Assembly (NCBI RefSeq): GCF_018228765.1
Contig: NZ_CP073695.1
Location: 1,984,001-2,048,000, forward strand
DNA length: 64,000 nucleotides
Source of the DNA: Halorubrum ruber
Lineage (GTDB): Archaea > Halobacteriota > Halobacteria > Halobacteriales > Haloferacaceae
Reading direction: 5' to 3'
In this document: positions 1,968 through 16,570 of the stretch, one piece after another
Layout: each line of letters begins with the position of its first letter
Position numbering within the stretch: the stretch's first letter is position 1
Translations under genes and position numbers: made by a program
Notes under the pieces: generated by a model
What the model was told of the DNA's origin: nothing
What the model saw: only the letters and a program-made list of their open reading frames with translations
Database searches by the model: none

Positions 1968-3176
1968 ATGTACGGAGTCGTGCTCGCGGCCGGCCGCGGG
2001 ACTCGGATGCGACCGCTGACGGACCGCCGCCCGAAACCCCTCCTCCCGGTCGGAGACCGCTCGCTGCTGGAACAGGTGTTCGACGCCGCCCGCGACGTCG
2101 TCGACGAGTTCGTCGTCGTGACGGGCTACCGCGGCGACGCGATCCGCGATAGCATAGGCGAGTCGTACCGCGACCGCCCGGTCCACTACGTCGAACAGGC
2201 GGAGGCGCTGGGGACCGCCCACGCCGTGGCGCAGGCGGAACCGGTCGTCGACGACGATTTCCTCGTGCTCAACGGCGACGTCGTCGTAGACGCCTCGCTC
2301 CCGCGCGCGCTCGCCGACGCGGGCGCGCCGGCCGTGGCGGCCACCGAGGTCGACGACCCGCGGGCGTACGGCGTGCTCTCGACTGCCGCCGACGGCTCGC
2401 TCGCGGGGATCGTCGAGAAGCCCGCCGACCCGCCGACGAACCTCGCGAACGTCGGCTGCTACGCGTTCGAGCCGGAGGTGTTCGAGTACATCGAGCGCAC
2501 GCCCGAAAGCGAGCGCAGCGAGTATGAGATCACGACGACGATCGACCTGCTGCTTGGCGACGGCCGCCGGATCGACGTGGCGCGGTACGACGGGACCTGG
2601 CTCGACGTCGGCCGGCCGTGGGAGCTGCTGGAGGCGAACGAGCTGGCGCTCGCGGAGCTCGACGACGAGCGCGACCTCGCCGGTACCGTCGAGGAGGATG
2701 TCCACCTCCACGGGCCGGTCGTCGTCGAGGCGGGCGCGCGAGTCCGTTCGGGTGCCTATATCGAGGGCCCGGCGCTGATCCGCGAGGGCGCCGACGTGGG
2801 GCCGAACGCCTACGTCCGCGGGGCGACCGTCGTGGGGCCCGGGGCCCACGTCGGTCACTCGGTCGAGGTGAAGAACTCGGTGCTGATGGCGGACGCCTCG
2901 GTCGGCCACCTCTCGTACGTCGGCGACTCGGTGCTGGGCCGCGCGGTGAACTTCGGGGCAGGGACGAACGTCGCAAACCTCCGGCACGACGGCGAAAACG
3001 TCCGGCAGACGGTGAAGGGCGACCGCGTCGACACCGGGCGTCGGAAGCTGGGCGCGATCGTCGGCGACGAGGCGAAGACGGGGATCAACACGTCGCTGAA
3101 CGCCGGCGTCGTACTGGGCGCCGGAGAGACAACCGGGCCGGGCGAGGCGCTGACGCGCGACCGGCTCTCGGAGTAG
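1968..3176 (+). CDS. glmU: Bifunctional sugar-1-phosphate nucleotidylyltransferase/acetyltransferase (archaeal GlmU type)
   Basis: A 402-residue cytosolic enzyme with an N-terminal nucleotidyltransferase domain (LAAGRGTRMRPLT at the start binds the nucleotide; NGDVVVD near residue 105 carries the metal aspartate; VEKP near 150) and a C-terminal left-handed beta-helix of hexapeptide repeats from about residue 245. The distal part has the acetyltransferase-type segment GAGTNVANLRHDG and GRRKLGAIVGD with KTGINTS, typical of the archaeal bifunctional proteins that acetylate glucosamine-1-phosphate and then make UDP-GlcNAc. It belongs with glmM upstream and glmS downstream. Its exact substrate range is not visible; archaeal members can be promiscuous. 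Confidence 0.88.
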   Translation: MYGVVLAAGRGTRMRPLTDRRPKPLLPVGDRSLLEQVFDAARDVVDEFVVVTGYRGDAIRDSIGESYRDRPVHYVEQAEALGTAHAVAQAEPVVDDDFLVLNGDVVVDASLPRALADAGAPAVAATEVDDPRAYGVLSTAADGSLAGIVEKPADPPTNLANVGCYAFEPEVFEYIERTPESERSEYEITTTIDLLLGDGRRIDVARYDGTWLDVGRPWELLEANELALAELDDERDLAGTVEEDVHLHGPVVVEAGARVRSGAYIEGPALIREGADVGPNAYVRGATVVGPGAHVGHSVEVKNSVLMADASVGHLSYVGDSVLGRAVNFGAGTNVANLRHDGENVRQTVKGDRVDTGRRKLGAIVGDEAKTGINTSLNAGVVLGAGETTGPGEALTRDRLSE

Positions 3177-3200: not shown

Positions 3201-5444
3201 TCACTCCTCTCCCCGCGCGTACCGCTCGAAGACCTCGGCGACCGCGTCGGCCGACTCCTTGAGCCGCTCCGTGTATGCCGGGCGGTCCCACGTCGGCGGC
3301 ACGAACTCGAGGGATTCGAGGGCGCCGTCCGCGGCGCCCGGAGCCGCGTGCGTGAGGTTCGTTTCGGCGTCGAGCGGCCGCGCCGTCCCGTCGGCGCCGT
3401 CGGGGGCGTACGAGGCCGCGGCGACGTCGATCGACTCCATCGTCTCGTGGGTGTCGAGGCCGTCGGTCCAGAGGTCGCCCAGCCGACGCCGACGGCTCGG
3501 GTCGGCGACGTTAAGCAGCCCCCAGGGGAGCCGGAGCTCGATCGCGTCGCTCGACGGCGCGACGTGGACGTCCGCGAGCGAGTCGTACGCGGGCGACTCG
3601 GGGTTCCCGTTGCCGTAGCGCAGCTCCCCCGTCTCCACCGACTCGAAGGGGACGTACTCGTCCGTCACCGGGACGGTGTACCCGCGGTTGATCACCAGCC
3701 GGAGCGGGGTAAAGTCACCAGGGATGGGGTTTCGGTATCGGTCGAGGTCGAGGCCGGCCTCGGCGCCGTACTCGTACGCGAAGGCGTCGTACCGGGGGTG
3801 AACCGTCACCCGAGAGGTGTCGGGGCCGCCGAGGCGGACGATGAAGTCGGCGGGCGCCGCCGCGTCGACCCCGTACGGGAGCGCCCGTGCGCCGGCGTCG
3901 GTGGTCCCGATCGCCAGGAGGTAGTTCGTCGCGTCCCAGTCCGGTTCGCCGTCGAGGCCCGCGAGTTCGAGCCGGACGTTGAGGTACGCCGCGTCGCTCG
4001 TCACGCGGACCGCCGTCAGCTCGCGCGCCGCGTCGGCGCCGTCGCCGAGCCGGACGGGCTCGCGCTCAGCCGTCGCGGCGGTCGCGTCCGCCCACGCCTC
4101 GGGCGACCCGTCGAGCGGCACCGCGTCGGCCGGGTCGAACGCGAGGAGCCCGAACCGCTGTTCCGGCGTCTGGACGTTCGACCAGAACGGGCGGCGGTTC
4201 GGGTCCGAGAAGGGGGCAAGGTTCCACGTCCGCTTGAACCACTCGTCGTGCCAGCTGAACACGACCCCACCAGCGGTCCCGGCCTCGCGGATGTCCGCGT
4301 ACATCGCGGCGATGATCTCCCCCTGCTCGGTCTCGGTGTGTCCGCCTTGGTCGCGGCCGTGGACGTCGCGCTGGGCGATCCCGCGGGAGGCAGGGACGCC
4401 GAACTCCGCGACGAGCAGCGGGTGGTCGGTCGCGTCGACGAGGTCGTTCAGGTAGCCGGCGTAGCTGTTCGGCTCGCCGCGGTGGTCGACGTAGTCGACG
4501 TACTCCGGCGTCTCGTTCAACAGCGGCGGGTAGTACGGGTAGACGTGGTAGGCGGCGAACGTCCCGGCGTCGTAGGCGTCGGTCGCGACGACCGCGTCCG
4601 GATCGACGGAGACCGCATCCTCGTTGACGAACGGCTCGTACGGGTGCTCCAGCGGGTCGGTGGTCACCCAGTTGGTGAACGCCGCGGGCCGTTGCGCGCC
4701 GTACTCGCTCGCCTCGTACGCGACCGCGGCGTCGAGGCGGCCCGCGAGCCATGCCTCGAACGGGGAGCCGTCGGGCGCGGCGAGGAACTTTCCGTCGTAG
4801 CCGGTCGCCTCGTTCACCCGGTCCGTCTCCGCGACGACCGCCGGCGGCCACTCGATGCCGACGACGTAGCCGAGGACGGCGTCGCTCACGTCGGCGTCGT
4901 AGGTCCCGCTCGCGTACCCGGGTTCCGGCTCGACCGTCGTCGCGCCGTGGACGGCGTCGACGACCTGTCGCACCGAGCGGTCGAAGGCGGCCGACAGCGC
5001 CGTCGCGTCCCCCGCCTCGCGGAGCGTCTCCTCGCCGATCCAGTTGCCGTGGAGGACGTAGATCGGATCCGCGTGCGAGCGGTTGTACGCCGCGAGCGCC
5101 CGGTAGAACGCGGGCGGATGGACGGTGTACACGCGGACCACGTTGACGTTCAGCTCGCCCATCAGCCGTAGCCAGCGGTCGTACTCCGCGCGGGTGATCG
5201 CCGCCTCGCCCGGAAACCGCCCGGGCTTGGCCATTCCGAGGTTCACGCCGCGGACTGCGATCGGCTCGAAGCCGCCGTCGTCGACTGCGACCTCGAAGCC
5301 CTCGTCGGCGACGCGAAAACGGCGGGAAGGGTCCGCGCCGGGACCGTCGCCCCTTGACCCGTCGGCGTCGCCGCGGAAGCCGCAGCCGGCAGTGCCGACC
5401 GCTCCCGCGACCCCGACGCGACCCAGAAACCGGCGTCTGCGCAC
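3201..5444 (-). CDS. Tat-exported lipoprotein with a clan GH-A glycoside-hydrolase-like barrel
   Basis: A 747-residue protein starting at a GTG. It begins MRRRRFLGRVG, a twin-arginine signal, and has a lipobox-like GTAGCG with Cys21, so it is probably exported folded and anchored by lipid to the outer membrane face. Residues about 55-410 look like a TIM barrel of clan GH-A: Glu198 in GYVVGIEW fits the acid/base after strand 4, Glu347 in LLVAEFG fits the nucleophile after strand 7, and YHVYPYYP lies between them. Residues about 470-747 are beta-rich, possibly a carbohydrate-binding (CBM9/DOMON-like) module. Family-level substrate is unknown. It is divergent from the GAF kinase and close to the processive GT2, so a role in trimming or releasing an exopolysaccharide is inferred. 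Confidence 0.75.
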   Translation of the reverse strand: MRRRRFLGRVGVAGAVGTAGCGFRGDADGSRGDGPGADPSRRFRVADEGFEVAVDDGGFEPIAVRGVNLGMAKPGRFPGEAAITRAEYDRWLRLMGELNVNVVRVYTVHPPAFYRALAAYNRSHADPIYVLHGNWIGEETLREAGDATALSAAFDRSVRQVVDAVHGATTVEPEPGYASGTYDADVSDAVLGYVVGIEWPPAVVAETDRVNEATGYDGKFLAAPDGSPFEAWLAGRLDAAVAYEASEYGAQRPAAFTNWVTTDPLEHPYEPFVNEDAVSVDPDAVVATDAYDAGTFAAYHVYPYYPPLLNETPEYVDYVDHRGEPNSYAGYLNDLVDATDHPLLVAEFGVPASRGIAQRDVHGRDQGGHTETEQGEIIAAMYADIREAGTAGGVVFSWHDEWFKRTWNLAPFSDPNRRPFWSNVQTPEQRFGLLAFDPADAVPLDGSPEAWADATAATAEREPVRLGDGADAARELTAVRVTSDAAYLNVRLELAGLDGEPDWDATNYLLAIGTTDAGARALPYGVDAAAPADFIVRLGGPDTSRVTVHPRYDAFAYEYGAEAGLDLDRYRNPIPGDFTPLRLVINRGYTVPVTDEYVPFESVETGELRYGNGNPESPAYDSLADVHVAPSSDAIELRLPWGLLNVADPSRRRRLGDLWTDGLDTHETMESIDVAAASYAPDGADGTARPLDAETNLTHAAPGAADGALESLEFVPPTWDRPAYTERLKESADAVAEVFERYARGEE

Positions 5445-5534
5445 AGCCTCACGTACGGGAGGAGATGGTTAAGCCTGCTTCTCCGACGGAGCGAGGGGCA
5501 AGCGAAACTCGCGTTTTTATCCGACGGCCGCCCC

Positions 5535-5547
5535 TTACCGTCGGTAA
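5535..5547. promoter_or_regulatory. 13 bp palindrome in the divergent kinase/lipoprotein intergenic region
   Basis: TTACCG-T-CGGTAA is a perfect inverted repeat with a one-base centre, 17 bp upstream of the kinase ATG at 5565. A TATA-like TTTTTATCC lies at about 5514-5522, so the palindrome would fall near or just after the transcription start, a suitable operator position. Function is inferred from position and symmetry only. Confidence 0.4.
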
Positions 5548-5564
5548 CGGCCAGTTTACTCACC

Positions 5565-6728
5565 ATGTCACCCGACACGCCCCCCTCTGACCCCTTCAAG
5601 AGCCTGCTCGAGTTGACCGCGACCGACCTCTCGGCCGAAGAGCGCATTCGGAAGGCGATCGACGTCGGCCAAGAGCACCTCGGCGTGGACAACGGCGTGC
5701 TCTCGTACACCGGCGACGGCCGGTACGAGGTCGTCGAAACAAACATCCAGAGCGGTCCCTACGCGCAGGGCGGCGTCGTCGACCTCGACGGGACGTGGTG
5801 CCGCCACGTCGTCGAGAGCAGCGAGACGGTCGGGTTCGCCGACGCGCGCGACAGCGAGTACCGCGACGACGACGCGCTCGGGATCACCGGCCTCCACTGC
5901 TACGTGGGCGCTGTCATCGACATTGACGGCGAGACGTACGGGACGCTCTGTTTCTCCGACGAGGAGCCGCGCGACGACCCGATCACGGACGCGGAGCGCG
6001 ACTTCGTTTCGGTGCTCGCCGAGTGGGTTGGCAGCGAGCTCGAGCGGCAGAAACACTACGCCGAGCTGCGCGAGCAGAACGAGCGGCTCGACGAGTTCGC
6101 TGGTATCGTCGCCCACGACCTCCGGAACCCGCTGTCGGGGGCCATCGGGTTCACGGAGCTCGCGCAGGAGCACGTCGGCGGGCAGGCGGCCGACTTCCTC
6201 GACCGCGTTCAGGGGGCGCTCGGTCGCATGGAGTCGATGATCGCCGAGTGTCTGATGCTGGCGAAGGAGGGGACGGACGTGGGCGAGCGCACGCAGGTGG
6301 ACCTCGACGGAGTCGTCCGCGACGCGTGGGACACGGTCCGGACGCGGAACGCGACGCTGTCGGTCGAGGTCGCCGCTGGGACGACCGTCCTCGCCGACGA
6401 GGCGCGGCTCCGGCGGCTCTTCGAGAACCTGTTTCGCAACTGCGTCGAACACGGCGGCCCGGACGTGGCGGTGACGGTCACCGGCGACGCGCACGGCTTC
6501 GCCGTCAGCGACGACGGGCCGGGGCTCCCCGCGGACGTCGAACACGCGCTCACCGCGGCCGACACGGAGAACATCAAGTCGTTCGGACTCGGCCTGTTGG
6601 TCGTCCAGCGCGTGATATCGGGCCACGGCTGGGACCTCGCCGTCGACACCGGCGACGAGGGAACCCGCTTCGCTGTGAGCGACGTCAACGCCGCGGAGCC
6701 GGTCCACGAGGCGCTGGCCGGGGACTGA
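5565..6728 (+). CDS. GAF-domain sensor histidine kinase (soluble)
   Basis: A 387-residue protein with no membrane segment. Residues about 20-165 form a GAF-type sensor domain of the haloarchaeal kind, including a WCRHVVES segment and paired Cys/His residues (Cys79, Cys112) that could ligate a cofactor. A short coiled coil leads into the HisKA H-box, LDEFAGIVAHDLRNPL, with His184 as the expected phosphorylated residue. The HATPase region follows (N box LFRNCVEHGG, G1 box DDGPGLP, G2 box SFGLGLLVV). It faces away from the lipoprotein and towards the GT2-HEAT-response-regulator set, so phosphotransfer to the regulator at 9966 is plausible but not shown. The start at 5565 places a TATA-like box about 45 bp upstream, giving a short leader. 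Confidence 0.88.
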   Translation: MSPDTPPSDPFKSLLELTATDLSAEERIRKAIDVGQEHLGVDNGVLSYTGDGRYEVVETNIQSGPYAQGGVVDLDGTWCRHVVESSETVGFADARDSEYRDDDALGITGLHCYVGAVIDIDGETYGTLCFSDEEPRDDPITDAERDFVSVLAEWVGSELERQKHYAELREQNERLDEFAGIVAHDLRNPLSGAIGFTELAQEHVGGQAADFLDRVQGALGRMESMIAECLMLAKEGTDVGERTQVDLDGVVRDAWDTVRTRNATLSVEVAAGTTVLADEARLRRLFENLFRNCVEHGGPDVAVTVTGDAHGFAVSDDGPGLPADVEHALTAADTENIKSFGLGLLVVQRVISGHGWDLAVDTGDEGTRFAVSDVNAAEPVHEALAGD

Positions 6729-6754
6729 GCGCCCGCGGACTGAGCGGCCGGGGA

Positions 6755-8695
6755 CTACTCGGCGGGATCGGCCGTGTCGACCACCCAGACGAACCCCTGG
6801 TTGCCGGCGCCGGTCGCGGCGTCGGTGGTCCACACGAAGCCGCCGTCGCCCGCGCCGAGCGTCGGGTCGGTCGTCCAGACGAAGCCGCCGTCGCCGAGCC
6901 CCTCCGAGAAGTCCGTTGTCGCGGCGAGCCGGACGCTCCCGTCGGCGGCGGTCGCGAGGACGTAGCCGCCCTCGCCCGCGCCGAGCGCGGGGTCGGTCAC
7001 CCAGACGAACCCCCCGTCGCCGGCTGGGAAGTCGGTGGTCCAGACGAAGCCCCCCTCGCCGACGCCGACGGCCAGGTCCGCGACGGACGCGAGCATCCCG
7101 GGCTGGCCGTCGCTCGCGATACGGTCGAGCCACCGGAGGCCGTCGGTTCCGGGCTCGTCGGCGAGCCAGTCCACCCAGACGAAGCCGCCGTCGTCCGCGT
7201 CCTCGCGGTTGTCCGTGGCCGCGGCGGCCGCGGGCGCTGCCTCGACTGTGCCGCCGGCCGCAGCGGTTTCAGTCGCCGCGTCACCGAACCCGCGCCGCTC
7301 CATGACGCCCCACGACTGCTCGCCGCGGAGGAACTCGATTAGCCCGTGCCAGGCGACGACCGTCTTCCACTGGCGGTAGCCGAAGTTCTCTAAGACGCCG
7401 TACCAGAGCAGCCTGGCAGCGTCCTGCGGCGACTCGTAGCGGTTGTAGCTCCACACCTCGCTGAACACACCGAACCACGAGAGGAACACCCCGACACCCA
7501 CCGTGAGCAACAGGAAGGTGAGAAAGAACTCTATGTTGAGGATGCCGAGGTACCAGCCGAGCGGGAGCAGCACGTAGCCGAACCCCTCAATGAGCGGGCC
7601 GATCGCCTCCGCGGCGGTGAAGAAGGGGAGCACGACCGTGCCGACGCGGCCGTAGCGCCGGCGGAAGAAGAGGCCGCGGCTGGCGATCACTGTCTCCAGC
7701 ATGCCGCGGTACCAGCGGCGCCGCTGGCGACCCAGCGACCGGAGCGACTCCGGCACCTCCGTCCACGCGACGGGCTCTGGGACGAACTCGATCCGGTAGT
7801 CGATGTCGTTGTCCGAGAGGTACTCGTGGAGCCGGACGACCACGTCGAAGTCCTCCGTGATCGTGTCGTGGCGGTAGCCCCCGATCTCCCGGACGCGGTC
7901 GGTCCGGAACACGCCGAACGCACCGGAGATGAGGATCAGCCCCTTGAGCCGGGCGAGCCCGAGCCGCCCGGAGTAAAAGGCCCGCAGGTATTCCATCACC
8001 TGGACGCCGGCAAGGCCGGTCTTCGGCAGTTTGGTCTCTTTTACTTGGCCGTCTTGGACGACGCAGTCGTTGGCCACCCGGATGGTCCCGCCGCTGGCGA
8101 CCGTCCGCGAGGGCTCCTCGAGGAACGGCGCGACGACGTCGAGCAGCGCGTCGCGGTCGATCACGGTGTCAGCGTCGACCGCGCAGAACAGCTCCTGGTC
8201 GGTGAGCCAGACCCCGGCGTTGAGCGCGTCGCTTTTGCCGCCGTTCTCCTTGTCGACGACCAGCAGGTTCTCGTGGGTCGCCGAGCGGTACACCCCGCGG
8301 ATCGGTTCCGAGGGCACGTCGTATGGCACCTCGGCGTCGACGGGCCGCAACCCGAACGCCTCTTCGAGCCGGTCGAGGGTGGCGTCCGACGAGCCGTCGT
8401 TGACGACGACGATCTCCTGGTCGGGATAGTTGAGCGCCAGCATCGAGCGCACGCTCTCGACGATGTTCGCCGCCTCGTTGTACGCCGGCACGACCATCGC
8501 GACGCCCGGATAAAACGGGCTGTCGAACGCGCGGAACGACGGGTTCCACCCCGACTCGCGGACGTTGTCGCGGAGCTGGAACAGCGCGAGCACGTGGATC
8601 AGCAGGTAGCCGACGTTGATCAGCAGGTAGTACGTGACGATGAACACGCCCGACCCGACGACGAGCGTCGTCCCGACGCTCTCCAGCGTCGTCAT
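6755..8695 (-). CDS. Processive family-2 glycosyltransferase (polysaccharide synthase) with GGFVW-repeat tail
   Basis: A 646-residue membrane enzyme. An N-terminal membrane helix spans about residues 8-38. The GT-A catalytic domain follows with Asp100 (VVNDGSSD), the DAD motif at 174-176, TED at 280-282 and QRRRW at 324-328, the signature of processive synthases such as PgaC, BcsA and hyaluronan synthase. Two or more membrane helices lie at about 354-410. After a low-complexity Ala stretch (about 477-494), residues 500-646 carry seven copies of a (G/Q)GFVW-like motif, the last ones spaced exactly 15 residues apart, which is not part of known synthases. The start at 8695 overlaps the stop of the HEAT gene as ATGA, so the two are translationally coupled. 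Its place within a glm cluster suggests UDP-GlcNAc as donor (inference). Confidence 0.85.
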   Translation of the reverse strand: MTTLESVGTTLVVGSGVFIVTYYLLINVGYLLIHVLALFQLRDNVRESGWNPSFRAFDSPFYPGVAMVVPAYNEAANIVESVRSMLALNYPDQEIVVVNDGSSDATLDRLEEAFGLRPVDAEVPYDVPSEPIRGVYRSATHENLLVVDKENGGKSDALNAGVWLTDQELFCAVDADTVIDRDALLDVVAPFLEEPSRTVASGGTIRVANDCVVQDGQVKETKLPKTGLAGVQVMEYLRAFYSGRLGLARLKGLILISGAFGVFRTDRVREIGGYRHDTITEDFDVVVRLHEYLSDNDIDYRIEFVPEPVAWTEVPESLRSLGRQRRRWYRGMLETVIASRGLFFRRRYGRVGTVVLPFFTAAEAIGPLIEGFGYVLLPLGWYLGILNIEFFLTFLLLTVGVGVFLSWFGVFSEVWSYNRYESPQDAARLLWYGVLENFGYRQWKTVVAWHGLIEFLRGEQSWGVMERRGFGDAATETAAAGGTVEAAPAAAAATDNREDADDGGFVWVDWLADEPGTDGLRWLDRIASDGQPGMLASVADLAVGVGEGGFVWTTDFPAGDGGFVWVTDPALGAGEGGYVLATAADGSVRLAATTDFSEGLGDGGFVWTTDPTLGAGDGGFVWTTDAATGAGNQGFVWVVDTADPAE

Positions 8696-9963
8696 CCGCG
8701 CACCTCGTCGCGGAGCCGGTCCCGGTCGCGGGAGATGTCTCGCGCGAGGCGGTCGAAGCGGGTGTGTTCGGCCGCCCAGTCCCACGCGACGTCGAAGGGC
8801 GGCACAGCGGGGGCGGGCGTCTCCGGGTCGGGAGCGGACGGATCAGCGACCGCATCAGCCGACTGGTCCCCCGCCACGCCGGCGGAGTGCTGCGGCGGGT
8901 CGCTCGGCGCTGGCACGGCGTCCGGGCCGCGCTGGGCGACCAGCGTCTCGGCCGCGGCGACCTGCGCGCGCGGATCCGGATCGACCGTCCCGGCCGCCTC
9001 GATTGCCCCGAGCGCCGTCGCGTCGCCCCAGACCCCGAGCGCGCGATACGCGTCGGCGCGGACCGCCGGCGCCGGCTCGTCGGGGATCGCGTCGAGGTCG
9101 ATCGCGTCGCGGAGCCGACGGTTCCAGCCGTACGCGCCCAGCGCCCGCCACGCGGCCGCCCGCACGCTCGGATCCGCGCTCGACAGCGCCGCGACGACCC
9201 ACGAGAGGTCGGCGCCGCCAACCACGGTTGTGAGATGGCGGACGACGAGCAGCGCCTGCCGCTGGAGTGCCGGCGGCCACGTCGGGAAGTCGGCGGCCGC
9301 CCGCTCGAAGAACGGGCTCGGGTTGCCCTCGGCGACGCGGTACAGCGTGTCGACGCCGAACACCGAGAACGGGTCGGGGTCGTCACGGAGCAGGAGGTCG
9401 ACGCCAGTTGTCGCGCAGTCGTCCGTCCTGGCCGCGTACAGCACCCGGGCGGCAGCGGCGCGCTCGCGTGGCGTCTCGGTACAGTGCGCTCGAAGCAGGT
9501 CGCGGTCAGGGGCGTCGCGGAGCAGCGTGAGCCAGACGAGGGCGTGGCTGCGGTCCCAGTAGTCGCCGGCCGCGATCTCACGGCGGGCCCGCTCATTGAT
9601 TCCGAGCGCGCGGCCGAGCCCGGCCAGTTTCTCGGCGTCGCGGCCGTCGAGCTCGCGGAGATACACGTCGAGGACGGATTCGAGCTCGTCGCGTTCGGCC
9701 GCCGAGAGGCCGGTAACCCATGCGTCCCAAGCCGGCTCGTCGCGCCCGTAAAGCCGGTCGAGCAGTTCGCCGCGGAGCGCGGCGCGCATCGGCTCCCGTC
9801 GCCGGCGTCGGCGAGCCGCGAGGACCGAGTAGCCGAGGGTCACGAGCCCCGCCGCGAGCAACAGCGAACCGAGCACGAGGACGCCGATGGTGAGTACCCG
9901 CGACTGAGAGCCGGCGAGTGGACCGTAGAGGGACGCGACCACGGTCGAAGGCGCGAACAGCAC
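8692..9963 (-). CDS. Membrane-anchored HEAT-repeat protein
   Basis: About 423 residues from a GTG start placed two bases after the response-regulator stop. One membrane helix lies at about residues 22-48 (VLTIGVLVLGSLLLAAGL) followed by a basic cluster ARRRRRRREP, so the rest is probably cytoplasmic. The body consists of alpha-helical HEAT/PBS-lyase-like repeats, recognisable at SVRAAAWRALGAYG and AVRADAYRALGVWG, then a Pro/Ala/Asp-rich linker and a short charged C-terminus. HEAT repeats bind proteins; wedged between a receiver protein and a polysaccharide synthase, it is a good candidate for the adaptor that carries a phosphorylation signal to the synthase. That role is inference. A longer reading upstream would run through the response-regulator gene in another frame and was rejected. 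Confidence 0.8.
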   Translation of the reverse strand: MLFAPSTVVASLYGPLAGSQSRVLTIGVLVLGSLLLAAGLVTLGYSVLAARRRRRREPMRAALRGELLDRLYGRDEPAWDAWVTGLSAAERDELESVLDVYLRELDGRDAEKLAGLGRALGINERARREIAAGDYWDRSHALVWLTLLRDAPDRDLLRAHCTETPRERAAAARVLYAARTDDCATTGVDLLLRDDPDPFSVFGVDTLYRVAEGNPSPFFERAAADFPTWPPALQRQALLVVRHLTTVVGGADLSWVVAALSSADPSVRAAAWRALGAYGWNRRLRDAIDLDAIPDEPAPAVRADAYRALGVWGDATALGAIEAAGTVDPDPRAQVAAAETLVAQRGPDAVPAPSDPPQHSAGVAGDQSADAVADPSAPDPETPAPAVPPFDVAWDWAAEHTRFDRLARDISRDRDRLRDEVRG

Positions 9964-9965
9964 TC

Positions 9966-10361
9966 TTACCTCCCGACCAGTCGGTCGATGCGGGCCAGCA
10001 GCTCGTTCGGGCTGAACGGCTTCGTGAGGTACTCGTCGGCCCCGGAGTCGAGCCCCGCTAACACGTCGGCCTCCTGGCCGCGCGAAGTGAGCATCACGAC
10101 GGGCACGTCGGGGTCGACCGCGAGCTCGCCGCGCCGGATCGTCCGCAGCACCTGGGTCCCTTTCATCCGTGGCATCATCACGTCGAGGACGACGACATCC
10201 GGGGCCGCGCCGTTCTCGTTTAGCGCCTGCCGGCACTCCTCGCCGTCGTGACACACCGTCAGCTCGTAGCCCGCGTTCGACAGCTTGTACTGGAGGATCG
10301 ACCGGATCGTCTCGTCGTCGTCCGCGATGACGGCCGATTTCGACACACAGAGTATAGACAC
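9966..10361 (-). CDS. Single-domain response regulator (CheY-like receiver)
   Basis: A 131-residue stand-alone receiver domain. The acidic pocket is IADDDE (Asp14-Asp16), the phosphoacceptor is Asp60 in VVVLDVMMP, the switch Ser/Thr is in VVMLTSRG and the conserved lysine is in YLTKPFSP. No output domain is attached, so the signal must pass to another protein. It is the first gene of a three-gene set with the HEAT protein (2 bp gap) and the GT2 synthase (4 bp overlap). The start is a GTG at 10361; another GTG at 10346 is possible. The kinase at 5565 is the nearest candidate partner. Confidence 0.9.
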   Translation of the reverse strand: MSILCVSKSAVIADDDETIRSILQYKLSNAGYELTVCHDGEECRQALNENGAAPDVVVLDVMMPRMKGTQVLRTIRRGELAVDPDVPVVMLTSRGQEADVLAGLDSGADEYLTKPFSPNELLARIDRLVGR

Positions 10362-10414: not shown

Positions 10415-10438
10415 ACCCGGACGGGCGAGGTGTACGAT

Positions 10439-11614
10439 ATGGCTACCGACTCCGTGACCGCGGTGATCCTCGCCGCGGGCGAGGGCCGACGGTTGGCGCC
10501 GCTGACGAACCGACGGCCCAAGCCGATGGTCCCCGTGGCGAACCGCCCCCTGCTCGAACACGTCGTCGAGGCCGTCACGGCGACCGACATCGACCGGATC
10601 GTCCTCGTCGTCGGCTACGAGCAGGAGCGCATCCGGAACCACTTCGGCGACGGCGACGACTGGGACGTGACGATCGAGTACGTCGAACAGACCACCCAGC
10701 TCGGTACCGGCCACGCCGTCCTCCAAGCCGAACCGGTCGTCGACGGCCCCTTCGTCGTGCTCAACGGCGACCGGATCGTGGACGCGTCGATCGTCTCGCA
10801 GATGCGCGACCGGGCGCGCGACGACGACCTCCCCGCGATGGCGGTCACGACCGCGGCGAACCCCCGCCAGTACGGCGTCGTCACCCTCGACGGCGACCGC
10901 GTGACCGGCATCGACGAGAAGCCGGAGGGCCCCGTCGAGACGAACCAGATCAACGCCGGTGTGTACGCCTTTTCGCCGGCCGTCTTCGACGCGATCCGCG
11001 AGACGCACGCGACCGGAGAGTTAGCGATCACGGCGACGCTCAACGATCTCGCCGGTGACGAGTCGCTGTCGGCGGTCCGGTATGACGGTCGCTGGCTCGA
11101 CGTGTCGAACCTCTGGGACCTGCTCACCGTCAACGCGGGGCTGGTCGACGAGGCCACGGCGGCCGAGACCGTGGGCGCCAGCTTGGGTGCGTCAGTGACC
11201 GTCGCCGACGACGTGGCGCTCGCTGGCAACGTGCGCGTCGGGCCGAACGTCACGCTCGGCGGCAGCACCGCGATCGGGAGTAACGCGACGGTCGAGGCGG
11301 GCGCAGTCGTCGAGAACGCCGTGGTCTTCCCCGACGCCGTGATCGGCGCCGGGGCCGTGGTCCGGGACGCGATCGTCGCCGGCAACGCGCGGGTGGGGCC
11401 GAACGCGACGATCGCGGGCGAACCGGCGACGATCGTCGTCGGCGACGCGGTCCACCACAACGTGGAACTCGCGGGCGTGGTCGGGGACAACGCGACCGTC
11501 GGCGCCGGCGCGACGCTCACGGACGGCGCGGTCGTCGGCGACGACGTCAACGCCGACGCGGGAGTCGTGATCGACGACCGCGTTGAATCGGGCGCGGTCG
11601 TGCGGAGGGGGTAA
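10439..11614 (+). CDS. Sugar-1-phosphate nucleotidylyltransferase with left-handed beta-helix domain (GlmU-like paralogue)
   Basis: A 391-residue protein with an N-terminal nucleotidyltransferase domain (VILAAGEGRRLAPLTNRRPKPM; NGDRIVD with the metal aspartate; IDEKPEGP) and a C-terminal hexapeptide-repeat helix from about residue 250 to the end. Compared with the gene at 1968 it lacks the GAGTNVANLRHDG and GRRKLGAIVGD acetyltransferase segment, so it is probably a nucleotidyltransferase only, making a UDP- or dTDP-activated hexose or acting on GlcNAc-1-phosphate. It ends 2 bp before glmS, so the two are very likely one transcription unit. A 3-codon longer GTG start is possible but overlaps the expected transcription start. 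Confidence 0.85.
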   Translation: MATDSVTAVILAAGEGRRLAPLTNRRPKPMVPVANRPLLEHVVEAVTATDIDRIVLVVGYEQERIRNHFGDGDDWDVTIEYVEQTTQLGTGHAVLQAEPVVDGPFVVLNGDRIVDASIVSQMRDRARDDDLPAMAVTTAANPRQYGVVTLDGDRVTGIDEKPEGPVETNQINAGVYAFSPAVFDAIRETHATGELAITATLNDLAGDESLSAVRYDGRWLDVSNLWDLLTVNAGLVDEATAAETVGASLGASVTVADDVALAGNVRVGPNVTLGGSTAIGSNATVEAGAVVENAVVFPDAVIGAGAVVRDAIVAGNARVGPNATIAGEPATIVVGDAVHHNVELAGVVGDNATVGAGATLTDGAVVGDDVNADAGVVIDDRVESGAVVRRG

Positions 11615-11616
11615 CC

Positions 11617-13491
11617 ATGTGTGGGATTACCGGCTACATCGGTGACGGGATCGTACTGGACGACGGTGACGCGGACGGCGGCGAGGGCACCGCGAGCGAC
11701 GGCGGGACCGCCGGCGTCGGCGACATCGTCCACGAGGGGCTCCGTAATCTGGAATACCGCGGCTACGACTCGGCGGGCGTCGCGCTCGTCGGCGAGACGA
11801 GCGGGCTCACCGTCGCGAAGCGGTCGGGCGAGGTCGACAACCTCACCGTCCCCGACGTGCCCGACGCGGCGCTCGGCGTCGGCCACACGCGCTGGAGCAC
11901 CCACGGCCCGCCGACGGACGCCAACGCCCACCCGCACACCGACTGCGTCGGCGACGTTGCGGTCGTCCACAACGGGATCGTCGAGAACCACGAGACGCTC
12001 AAGCAAGAACTGGCCGACCACGAGTTCACGAGCGACACCGACACCGAGGTCATCCCGCACCTGATCGAGGAGGAACTCGCGACCGACCCCGGACTGGGCC
12101 TGCTCGACGCGGTCCGGAGCGTCGAGGACCGCTTGGAAGGGAGCTACGCGATCTGTGCGGTCCGCGAGGGCGACGACCGGATCGTCGTCGCGCGCCGCGG
12201 AAGCCCGCTCGTGTTAGGTCGCGACGACGACGCGACGTTCGTCGCCAGCGACGTGACGGCCTTCCTCGAACACACCCGCGACGTGACGTATCTCGAGGAC
12301 GGCGACGTGGCGGCGCTGTCGGCCGAGGGTGTCGAGATTTACGCCGACGGCGACCTCGTCGACCGCGGCGTCGAAACGGTGACGTGGGAGGCCGACGCCG
12401 CTGAGAAGGGGGGCTACGAACACTACATGCGCAAGGAGATCCACGAGCAGCCCGAGGCCTTGCGTCAGACCATCGCGGGGCGGCTCGACGTCGACGGCGG
12501 CGACGTCGATCTGGACGTCTCCTTCCCGCCGGGCTTCCTCGCGGACCTCGAAGAGATCCAGATCGTCGCCTGCGGCACCTCCAACTACGCGGGGCGGTAC
12601 GCCGCGCAGTTGTTCGAGGAGCTGTCGGGAGTGCGCGCGACCGTCGAGATCGCCAGCGAGTACGAGTTCGGCGCGGGGCGCAGTCCGGACCGGACGCTCG
12701 TCGTCGCGGTGACGCAGAGCGGCGAGACCGCCGACACGCTCGGCGCGGTCCGGCGCGCCAACGCCGCCGGCGCGCGGACGTTCGCCGTGACGAACACCCT
12801 CGGCAGCACCGTCACGCGCGAGGTCGACGACACCGCGTTCATCCGCGCCGGCCCCGAGATCGGTGTCGCGGCGACGAAGACGTTCGCCTCGCAGGTGGCG
12901 ACGCTGACGATGCTCGCGGTGGCGATCGGCCGCGAACGCGGCGCGCTGGCCGCGGCCGACGCGCGGCCCGTCCTGGAGGGGCTCCGCGACCTCCCCGGCG
13001 CGGTCCAGCAGGTGCTCGACGCCGAGCCGAAGGTCCGCGAGGCCGCCAACGAGTACGGCGACAGCGAGGCGTTCTTTTTCGTTGGGCGGCAGCTTGGCGT
13101 TCCGGTGGCGCTGGAGGGCGCGCTGAAGCTCAAGGAGATCTCCTACGACCACGCTGAGGGATTCGCAGCGGGCGAGCTGAAACACGGACCGCTCGCTTTA
13201 GTGACGCCCGACACGCCCGTGTTAGCCGTCCTGACCGACGGGTCGCGCGCCGACGAGACGATGAACAACGTCACCGAGGCACAGACGCGCGGCGCGCCCG
13301 CCATCGGCTGTGTGTCCGCCGGTGAGGAGTACGCCACGCTGGACGTGTCGCTGCCGGTTCCGGACGTGGGTCTCGTCGAGCCGCTGGTTGCGAACGTCTA
13401 CCTCCAGCTGTTCGCGTACCACGTGGCGAACGACAAGGGCCGGTCGATCGACAAACCGCGCAATCTGGCGAAAAGCGTGACCGTGGAGTGA
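11617..13491 (+). CDS. glmS: Glutamine-fructose-6-phosphate aminotransferase (isomerising)
   Basis: A 624-residue enzyme that makes glucosamine-6-phosphate from fructose-6-phosphate and glutamine. The N-terminal Ntn glutaminase starts MCGITGYIG with Cys2 as nucleophile after Met removal, followed by RGYDSAG and HTRWSTHG motifs; a short acidic insertion (DDGDADGGEG) sits near residue 25. Two SIS sugar-isomerase domains follow (CGTSNYAG, VTQSGETADT, then EGALKLKEISYDHAEG) and the protein ends in the usual AKSVTVE. Length matches the family. It is the entry step to the UDP-GlcNAc route whose later steps are encoded at 2 and 1968. Two bp from the preceding gene. Confidence 0.95.
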   Translation: MCGITGYIGDGIVLDDGDADGGEGTASDGGTAGVGDIVHEGLRNLEYRGYDSAGVALVGETSGLTVAKRSGEVDNLTVPDVPDAALGVGHTRWSTHGPPTDANAHPHTDCVGDVAVVHNGIVENHETLKQELADHEFTSDTDTEVIPHLIEEELATDPGLGLLDAVRSVEDRLEGSYAICAVREGDDRIVVARRGSPLVLGRDDDATFVASDVTAFLEHTRDVTYLEDGDVAALSAEGVEIYADGDLVDRGVETVTWEADAAEKGGYEHYMRKEIHEQPEALRQTIAGRLDVDGGDVDLDVSFPPGFLADLEEIQIVACGTSNYAGRYAAQLFEELSGVRATVEIASEYEFGAGRSPDRTLVVAVTQSGETADTLGAVRRANAAGARTFAVTNTLGSTVTREVDDTAFIRAGPEIGVAATKTFASQVATLTMLAVAIGRERGALAAADARPVLEGLRDLPGAVQQVLDAEPKVREAANEYGDSEAFFFVGRQLGVPVALEGALKLKEISYDHAEGFAAGELKHGPLALVTPDTPVLAVLTDGSRADETMNNVTEAQTRGAPAIGCVSAGEEYATLDVSLPVPDVGLVEPLVANVYLQLFAYHVANDKGRSIDKPRNLAKSVTVE

Positions 13492-15247: not shown

Positions 15248-16570
15248 TCACCAAGTCAGCCCTTCGTACGTGATTCCGTCCCGGCGCTCAATGATTCGCC
15301 GTCCGTCGACGACAATCGGGGTTGCCATCGCGTCGAATTCCTCGTCGAGCGCGGCGAACTCGTCCCAGTCGGTGACGACGACCGCCGCGTCGGCGCCGTC
15401 GAGTGCCGCCGCGGCCGAGTCGGCGTAGGTCACGTCGTCGACGTAGTTGGGGGCGTTGTCGGCCGCGACCGGGTCGTAGGCGATAATAGTCGCGCCGCGC
15501 GCCTGGAGATCCTTGATCACCGGAATTGCCCGCGAGTTTCGCATATCGTCGGTGCCGGGCTTGAACGCAAGGCCGAGCACGGCGACGATGGCGCCGTCGA
15601 CCCCACCGTCACGGTGGGCGTCGAGGTGGTCGGCCAGCATCGCGACCAGCCGCGCCGGCTGGCGGTCGTTGACCTCGACGGCCGCGTTCAACATCGCCGG
15701 GTCGTAGCCGGCCGCCTGTGCCGCAGAGATAATTGCGCGTACGTCTTTCGGAAAACAACTCCCGCCCCAGCCGACGCCGCTCTGGAGGAACTGTGCGCCG
15801 ATGCGGTCGTCGAGGCCGATCGCGTCCGCGACCTCGTAGGCGTCGACGCCGAGCGCCTTACAGATGTTCCCGATGTCGTTGATCAGGCTGATCTTCGCCG
15901 CGAGGAAGGCGTTGTTAGCGTACTTTATCATCTCGGCGGTGCGCGTGTCCGTCTCCACGACGGGCGCGGCGGCGGCCGCGATCAGCGCCTCGAACACATC
16001 GCGCATGTCCGCGAGCGCGCGGTCGTCGTCCGCGCCGAGGACGACCTTGTCCGGATTGAGGAAATCGTGGACCGCCGTGCCCTCGCGAAGGAATTCTGGA
16101 TTCATCCCGATGCCGAAGTCCTCGCCGGCAGTCTTCCCGCTCTCCCGTTCGAGGATGGGAGTGATCGTGTCCGCCGTCGAGCCGGGCACGACCGTGCTCT
16201 TGACGACGACCGTGTGCCAGTCGAGTTTGTTGGCGAGCGTCGCGCCGAGCTGGCTCGCGCCGGCTTCCATGACCGAGAGGTCGATGCTACCGTCGTCGTT
16301 CTGTGGGGTGGGAAGACAGAGGAAGGTGACGTCGGTGTCGAGGACGGCGTCGTAGTCTGTGGTGGCCCGAAGCCGGCCAGTTCCCTCGGGCCCGGCGTGG
16401 GCGGCGATGAGTTCGGCGAGTCCCTCCTCGTGGATCGGCGCGTCGCCGGCGTTGATCGTTTCGACGACCGACTCATCGATGTCGATGTTGACGACGTCGT
16501 GACCGAGGTCGGCGAAACAGGCCGCGACGGTCGTGCCGACGTAGCCGCTGCCGACGATAGAGAGGTTCAT
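15248..16570 (-). CDS. aglM: UDP-glucose/GDP-mannose dehydrogenase family protein (AglM type)
   Basis: A 440-residue cytosolic enzyme expected to oxidise a UDP-hexose to the uronic acid with two NAD+. The Rossmann start is LSIVGSGYVGTTVAACF; LPTPQNDDGS and VVKSTVVPGS are family motifs; NPEFLREG and YANNAFLAAKIS follow; the catalytic cysteine is in GGSCFPKD. A C-terminal UDP-binding domain includes GLAFKPGTDDMRNS. In Haloferax volcanii AglM makes the glucuronic acid of the S-layer N-glycan, and here the next gene, divergent, looks like a glucuronosyltransferase (AglG type). GDP-mannose or UDP-ManNAc dehydrogenase activity is possible. A TATA-like box at 16594-16603 supports the start. Confidence 0.85.
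   Translation of the reverse strand: MNLSIVGSGYVGTTVAACFADLGHDVVNIDIDESVVETINAGDAPIHEEGLAELIAAHAGPEGTGRLRATTDYDAVLDTDVTFLCLPTPQNDDGSIDLSVMEAGASQLGATLANKLDWHTVVVKSTVVPGSTADTITPILERESGKTAGEDFGIGMNPEFLREGTAVHDFLNPDKVVLGADDDRALADMRDVFEALIAAAAAPVVETDTRTAEMIKYANNAFLAAKISLINDIGNICKALGVDAYEVADAIGLDDRIGAQFLQSGVGWGGSCFPKDVRAIISAAQAAGYDPAMLNAAVEVNDRQPARLVAMLADHLDAHRDGGVDGAIVAVLGLAFKPGTDDMRNSRAIPVIKDLQARGATIIAYDPVAADNAPNYVDDVTYADSAAAALDGADAAVVVTDWDEFAALDEEFDAMATPIVVDGRRIIERRDGITYEGLTW

Follow-up and report, generated by a model that had tools for sequence, protein, structure and literature searches.

A receiver, a HEAT-repeat protein and a putative processive glycosyltransferase form a conserved gene module in haloarchaea and many bacterial phyla

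We analysed a stretch of 64,000 nucleotides of Halorubrum ruber DNA (contig NZ_CP073695.1, positions 1,984,001 to 2,048,000), referred to here as the window; the host genome is a single 3.02-Mb contig. The five genes picked out by an initial annotation made from the sequence alone are all open at the stated positions, and all but the lipoprotein gene carry the expected Pfam domains (Table 1). The genes for the stand-alone receiver (REC), the HEAT-repeat protein and the family 2 glycosyltransferase (GT2) are adjacent and translationally coupled; the 2-bp gap between the REC stop codon and the GTG start of the HEAT gene, and the ATGA overlap shared by the HEAT and GT2 genes, were both confirmed. 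The HEAT protein has one hydrophobic segment (residues 23-41), a predicted N-terminal transmembrane helix, and a predicted cytosolic α-solenoid. The adjoining kinase, described at the outset as soluble, matched GAF, HisKA and HATPase, and a scan for hydrophobic segments found none. Searches of the host genome returned a single match for the HEAT protein and, for the GT2, one further, weak relative. The nearest named relative that we found is Halorubrum lipolyticum, with 88% identity in the GT2. The repeats in the GT2 tail are common only to the three closest same-genus homologues. A glmM gene, truncated by the window edge, also flanks the block.

Table 1. Features of the module and its flanks in the Halorubrum ruber window
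Feature	Position	Strand	Remarks
Stand-alone receiver (REC)	9966..10361	(-)	131 aa, no output domain; Response_reg 4e-28 (Pfam); phospho-acceptor Asp60, acidic pocket Asp15, Lys114
HEAT-repeat protein	8692..9963	(-)	423 aa; HEAT_2 8e-10 (Pfam)
Putative processive-type GT2 polysaccharide synthase	6755..8695	(-)	646 aa; Glyco_tranf_2_3 1e-19 (Pfam)
GT2 C-terminal tail, seven GDGGFVWTTD-like repeats	6758..7195	(-)	alignment and motif scan
Soluble GAF-HisKA-HATPase histidine kinase	5565..6728	(+)	Pfam; His within IVAHDLRNPL
Predicted Tat-exported lipoprotein glycosidase	3201..5444	(-)	747 aa; GH-A barrel and C-terminal beta-rich region
Archaeal GlmU	1968..3176	(+)	flanking gene, outside conserved module
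GlmU-like sugar-1-P nucleotidylyltransferase	10430..11614	(+)	flanking; just below model cut-off; few loci
GlmS	11617..13491	(+)	flanking gene, few loci, outside conserved module

The expectation that these genes would prove co-conserved was borne out far more strongly, and over a wider range, than anticipated. A phyletic profile of the order covered 195 genomes; with cut-offs of E ≤ 1e-6 for HEAT and E ≤ 1e-70 for the GT2, both queries matched the identical 28 genomes, spread over 16 of the 66 genera. One of the 28, G143, has two full HEAT copies and likewise two GT2s. The glycosidase query matched 15 genomes, all of them among the 28 carriers of HEAT and GT2, and in five (G068, G189, G030, G122 and G179) the gene is unlinked to the module. 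The probability of the HEAT/GT2 overlap is around 1e-34 (1e-15 at genus level) and that of the glycosidase nesting around 4e-15 by the hypergeometric test (1.5e-5 at genus level), all naive figures that are inflated by kinship between genomes. Six genomes of the same genus lack HEAT, GT2 and glycosidase, and the carriers are scattered over many families; hence common ancestry alone is insufficient to account for the co-occurrence. The order REC-HEAT-GT2 is kept, with REC beside HEAT, in 26 of the 28 haloarchaeal loci, most of the HEAT-GT2 junctions fall within about 10 bp, and at 8 further haloarchaeal loci a close homologue of the kinase adjoins the module. Elsewhere in the phylum, outside Halobacteria, the HEAT search returned only weak partial HEAT-repeat matches, which were left uncounted. 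Two loci (L053, 10613-12003, and L069) have the GT2 frame in two pieces, through a frameshift or an assembly error. In G143 the glycosidase lipoprotein occurs as three tandem copies beside one module (L047, 10891-17885), and the second, diverged REC-HEAT-GT2 (L067) has a degenerate receiver.

The module had been put forward as a haloarchaeal speciality, a view overturned by its recurrence across many bacterial phyla. When species genomes were scanned with the GT2 as sole query, 80 loci were kept, four haloarchaeal and most bacterial, from Bacteroidota, Bacillota, Pseudomonadota, Gemmatimonadota, Myxococcota, Acidobacteriota, Actinomycetota, Nitrospirota, Elusimicrobiota and Bdellovibrionota, among others; a haloarchaea-only origin is ruled out by these bacterial loci. 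HEAT adjoins the GT2 or is fused to it in 78 of these 80 GT2-selected loci, and Pfam HEAT_2 was matched by 68 of the 75 scanned ORFs that lie directly 5' of the GT2, the window itself supplying one of the 75. Our own bacterial HEAT profile matched at 76 of the 80 loci, a count that is partly circular since its training ORFs were chosen by position; the independent figures are the Pfam count and a separate sample of Bacteroidota, the phylum of a Flavobacterium locus. In that sample the GT2 was present in 44 of 198 genomes, and among the flanks examined HEAT lay directly 5' of the GT2 in 20 out of 20, with a receiver in view in 17. Across the 64-kb window the HEAT profile matched a single ORF, and the surroundings of E. 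coli PgaC, YaiP and BcsA and of the second GT2 of the host gave no match. A same-strand REC accompanies 66 of the 80 loci, upstream within 3.8 kb in 62 and just downstream in four, and the upstream REC is C-terminal in its protein, being either stand-alone or part of a longer protein. In two Bacillota loci (L127, 6489-9428, and L170, 6543-9443) HEAT and GT2 are one protein, encoded directly after the receiver protein. These two natural fusions tie HEAT to the synthase.

Further genes accompany the module at some loci. Diderm relatives often add TPR repeats and a β-barrel (YaiO), an outer-membrane exporter of the kind known from PgaA and other synthase-dependent secretion; among 91 neighbouring ORFs, YaiO barrels, typically with TPR repeats, account for 20 and sulfatase-fold proteins for 11, and PgaD/PgaB-type partners fall outside the 25 commonest families. 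Of the 80 GT2-selected loci, 13 have a homologue of the glycosidase lipoprotein.

The glycosidase had been described as a Tat-exported lipoprotein with clan GH-A catalytic glutamates, and both its N-terminus, (V/M)RRRRFLGRVGVAGAVGTAGC, which holds a twin-arginine motif and a lipobox, and its predicted structure agree with this. The AlphaFold2 model (pLDDT 83, pTM 0.86) contains a GH-A barrel in which Glu198 follows strand β4 and Glu347 lies on β7, the clan GH-A pattern. Its best match is the GH157 endo-β-1,3-glucanase LaGH157 (Z 32.4, 2.4 Å, 311 residues), followed by GH2 β-glucuronidases and galacturonidases at Z around 27. Bacterial homologues all have Glu347, and nearly all have Glu198. The catalytic region gave no sequence match in Pfam, NCBIfam or the PDB. 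The model thus has the GH-A fold and the 4/7 catalytic glutamates of GH157, but the protein is only 16% identical to LaGH157 and differs from it in an extra C-terminal region, in being a Tat lipoprotein and in its co-inheritance with a synthase. This marks out a GH157-like glycosidase family for which Pfam and NCBIfam have no model.

Taking these data together, we consider it probable that REC, HEAT and GT2 make up a membrane polysaccharide synthase complex that is switched by the receiver through HEAT, with the glycosidase acting outside the cell. The GT2 would polymerise a nucleotide sugar and move the chain across the membrane. HEAT, anchored by its one helix, would serve in the cytosol as a scaffold, binding the GT2 and offering a docking surface for the receiver; that REC and GT2 meet on HEAT is suggested by where HEAT lies, by its membrane anchor and by the fusions. 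The neighbouring GAF kinase, or a similar one, would phosphorylate REC, alter the REC-HEAT contact and so switch synthesis, and since REC has no DNA-binding or enzymatic output the kinase would act through that contact. We infer both the physical complex and the direction of control, a relay from kinase to REC to HEAT to GT2. The GH157-like lipoprotein would trim or release the polymer outside the cell, and in Gram-negative relatives the TPR-YaiO barrel would export it. Several findings count against this mechanism: the glycosidase is absent from most loci, no REC-HEAT fusion was seen among the 28 haloarchaeal and 80 GT2-selected loci, and, as described below, some bacterial receivers lack the phospho-Asp and the top structural match of the GT2 domain is PcManGT.

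The regulatory part of the proposal was examined through the conserved residues of the receiver. Every one of the 26 archaeal receivers examined retains Asp15 and Asp60, and 25 of them also Lys114; judged from the sequences, the kinase His and the receiver Asp and Lys of a two-component pair are retained in the host. Phospho-switching is therefore likely in haloarchaea, with the GAF kinase a candidate phosphodonor. Of the 66 receivers at the GT2-selected loci, 55 have Asp at the phospho-site, nine have Glu and two Asn, and the receivers beside both HEAT-GT2 fusions carry Glu. Phosphorylation is hence not universal, and some bacterial receivers may be locked on or structural. The same 11 substitutions would suit an arrangement in which REC and HEAT are a constitutive scaffold for the synthase, the receiver fold being structural and phosphorylation no switch; the near-complete conservation of the archaeal residues and the kinases that adjoin the module speak against this, and we regard it as unlikely. 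Receiver-switched synthesis, our preferred reading, would in the host operate without c-di-GMP, as the initial annotation had anticipated. Neither GGDEF nor PilZ gave a match in the host genome, control genomes did give matches, and Pfam found no PilZ domain on the GT2. The usual c-di-GMP/PilZ control of the module is therefore unlikely in the host and was rejected there on these zero matches, although GGDEF is fused to the partner receiver in 7 of 66 scanned bacterial loci.

We then considered whether the GT2 is a processive synthase, as had been claimed. The complete processive motif set is present (D, D, DxD, TED and QRRRW), and QxxRW is found in 91 of 92 family members. The best NCBIfam model is PgaC_IcaA, at 137.9 bits against an equivalog cut-off of 422 bits. 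In the tree, haloarchaeal and bacterial GT2s separate, the bacteria with one Thermoplasmatota row forming one side with support of 99; both sides have the same HEAT partner. The E. coli enzymes PgaC, YaiP and BcsA lie very far from the family, on long branches. An AlphaFold2 model of the L127 HEAT-GT2 fusion (pLDDT 80, pTM 0.71, with no domain-error map) has a GT2 domain whose top structural match is PcManGT (Z 31.9 over 340 residues; VIA-align), followed by hyaluronan synthases (Z 29.5 over about 400 residues, reaching the C-terminal end), E. coli BcsA (Z 25.1) and Chs1 (Z 23.1). PcManGT, an N-glycan enzyme, is non-processive yet has a minimal cellulose-synthase-like fold; the fold by itself is thus no proof of processivity, and on this point the gene context, with its YaiO barrels and sulfatase-fold proteins, says more. 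The PcManGT match, together with the presence in the same window of glm genes and of a UDP-glucose dehydrogenase of AglM type, would fit a lipid-linked, non-processive transferase of N-glycan or S-layer assembly that REC and HEAT regulate or assemble, but the near-universal QxxRW, the hyaluronan synthase alignment through to the C-terminal end, and the TPR-YaiO barrels and extracellular glycosidase, which suit an exported chain much better, make this quite improbable. The initial assignment therefore stands as a prediction: a complete motif set and, in a homologous domain, a modelled cellulose/hyaluronan-synthase-like fold point to a processive enzyme of synthase-dependent secretion.

It is very hard to credit that the receiver belongs to another pathway and is adjacent merely through shared transcription, since the TPR-YaiO gene that separates REC from HEAT in several Pseudomonadota and Bacteroidota loci is outweighed by REC lying beside HEAT in nearly all haloarchaeal loci and near it across phyla, and by L126, where REC and HEAT are still adjacent with the GT2 some 6 kb off. 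Returning to the receiver-switched synthase complex, the more specific claim is that the receiver, through the HEAT solenoid, directly gates a processive synthase post-translationally in archaea and many phyla, in place of c-di-GMP/PilZ or PgaD logic; we see the case for and against this claim as evenly balanced.

Several known systems share some of these features. The closest named GT2 model is PgaC/IcaA with PgaD, the c-di-GMP-regulated poly-GlcNAc synthase, whose operon likewise combines a membrane GT2 and small partner with TPR-barrel export (PgaA) and a glycoside hydrolase (PgaB). In contrast, the partners here are HEAT and a receiver, the E. coli pga locus has no HEAT match, the present host lacks GGDEF/PilZ matches, and the GT2 scores 138 against 422 bits. 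BcsAB cellulose synthase shares a processive synthase fold, a TPR outer-membrane channel and a companion glucanase (BcsZ), but the module GT2 has no C-terminal PilZ, and a receiver and HEAT partner replace BcsB. Hyaluronan synthases (Chlorella virus, Xenopus) are the best full-length processive structural match, but are only 16-17% identical to the module GT2 and are not known to need a receiver or HEAT partner. E. coli yaiO-yaiP-yaiS likewise has a YaiO barrel and a GT2 near each other, but shows no HEAT or receiver match, and YaiP is very distant from the module GT2 and lacks QxxRW.

No HEAT gene was found at the published EPS loci checked, and searches of open-access full texts turned up no description of a polysaccharide system built on receiver, HEAT and GT2, in keeping with the initial claim that none is described; an earlier description in subscription papers is possible. 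The module is widespread and seems to be an undescribed variant of the synthase-dependent route to polysaccharide production and export, and its proposed control mechanism is well motivated. For most known processive synthases of biofilm polysaccharides, the switch that has been described is c-di-GMP. If the proposal is true, the module would provide a direct protein-phosphorylation route to biofilm polysaccharide, usable without c-di-GMP, and a candidate matrix polymer for haloarchaea and many environmental bacteria, the unit being present in about a fifth of the Bacteroidota genomes sampled and sporadically in haloarchaea.

As to the polymer itself, glmM, GlmU-type and glmS genes do flank the module in the window, as first reported, but the UDP-GlcNAc substrate deduced from them is not supported. 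Flanking glm genes occur in only 5 of 29 haloarchaeal loci, namely the window, its three close relatives L042, L043 and L044, and L059, and so the use of UDP-GlcNAc does not follow from the conserved system; as a fixed substrate it was rejected. The GH157-/GH2-like similarity of the lipoprotein, together with a UDP-glucose dehydrogenase gene just 3' of the module in three Bacillota loci, makes β-glucan, GlcNAc and uronate-containing polymers all possible, and the product may accordingly be a β-linked glucan, an aminoglycan or a uronate-containing chain. The AglM-type UDP-glucose 6-dehydrogenase of the window (15248-16570, minus strand) lies about 5 kb from the module. In L145, L163 and other Bacteroidota the GT2 has a fused C-terminal sulfatase-fold domain, which suggests that the polymer is decorated with phosphoglycerol or a similar group.
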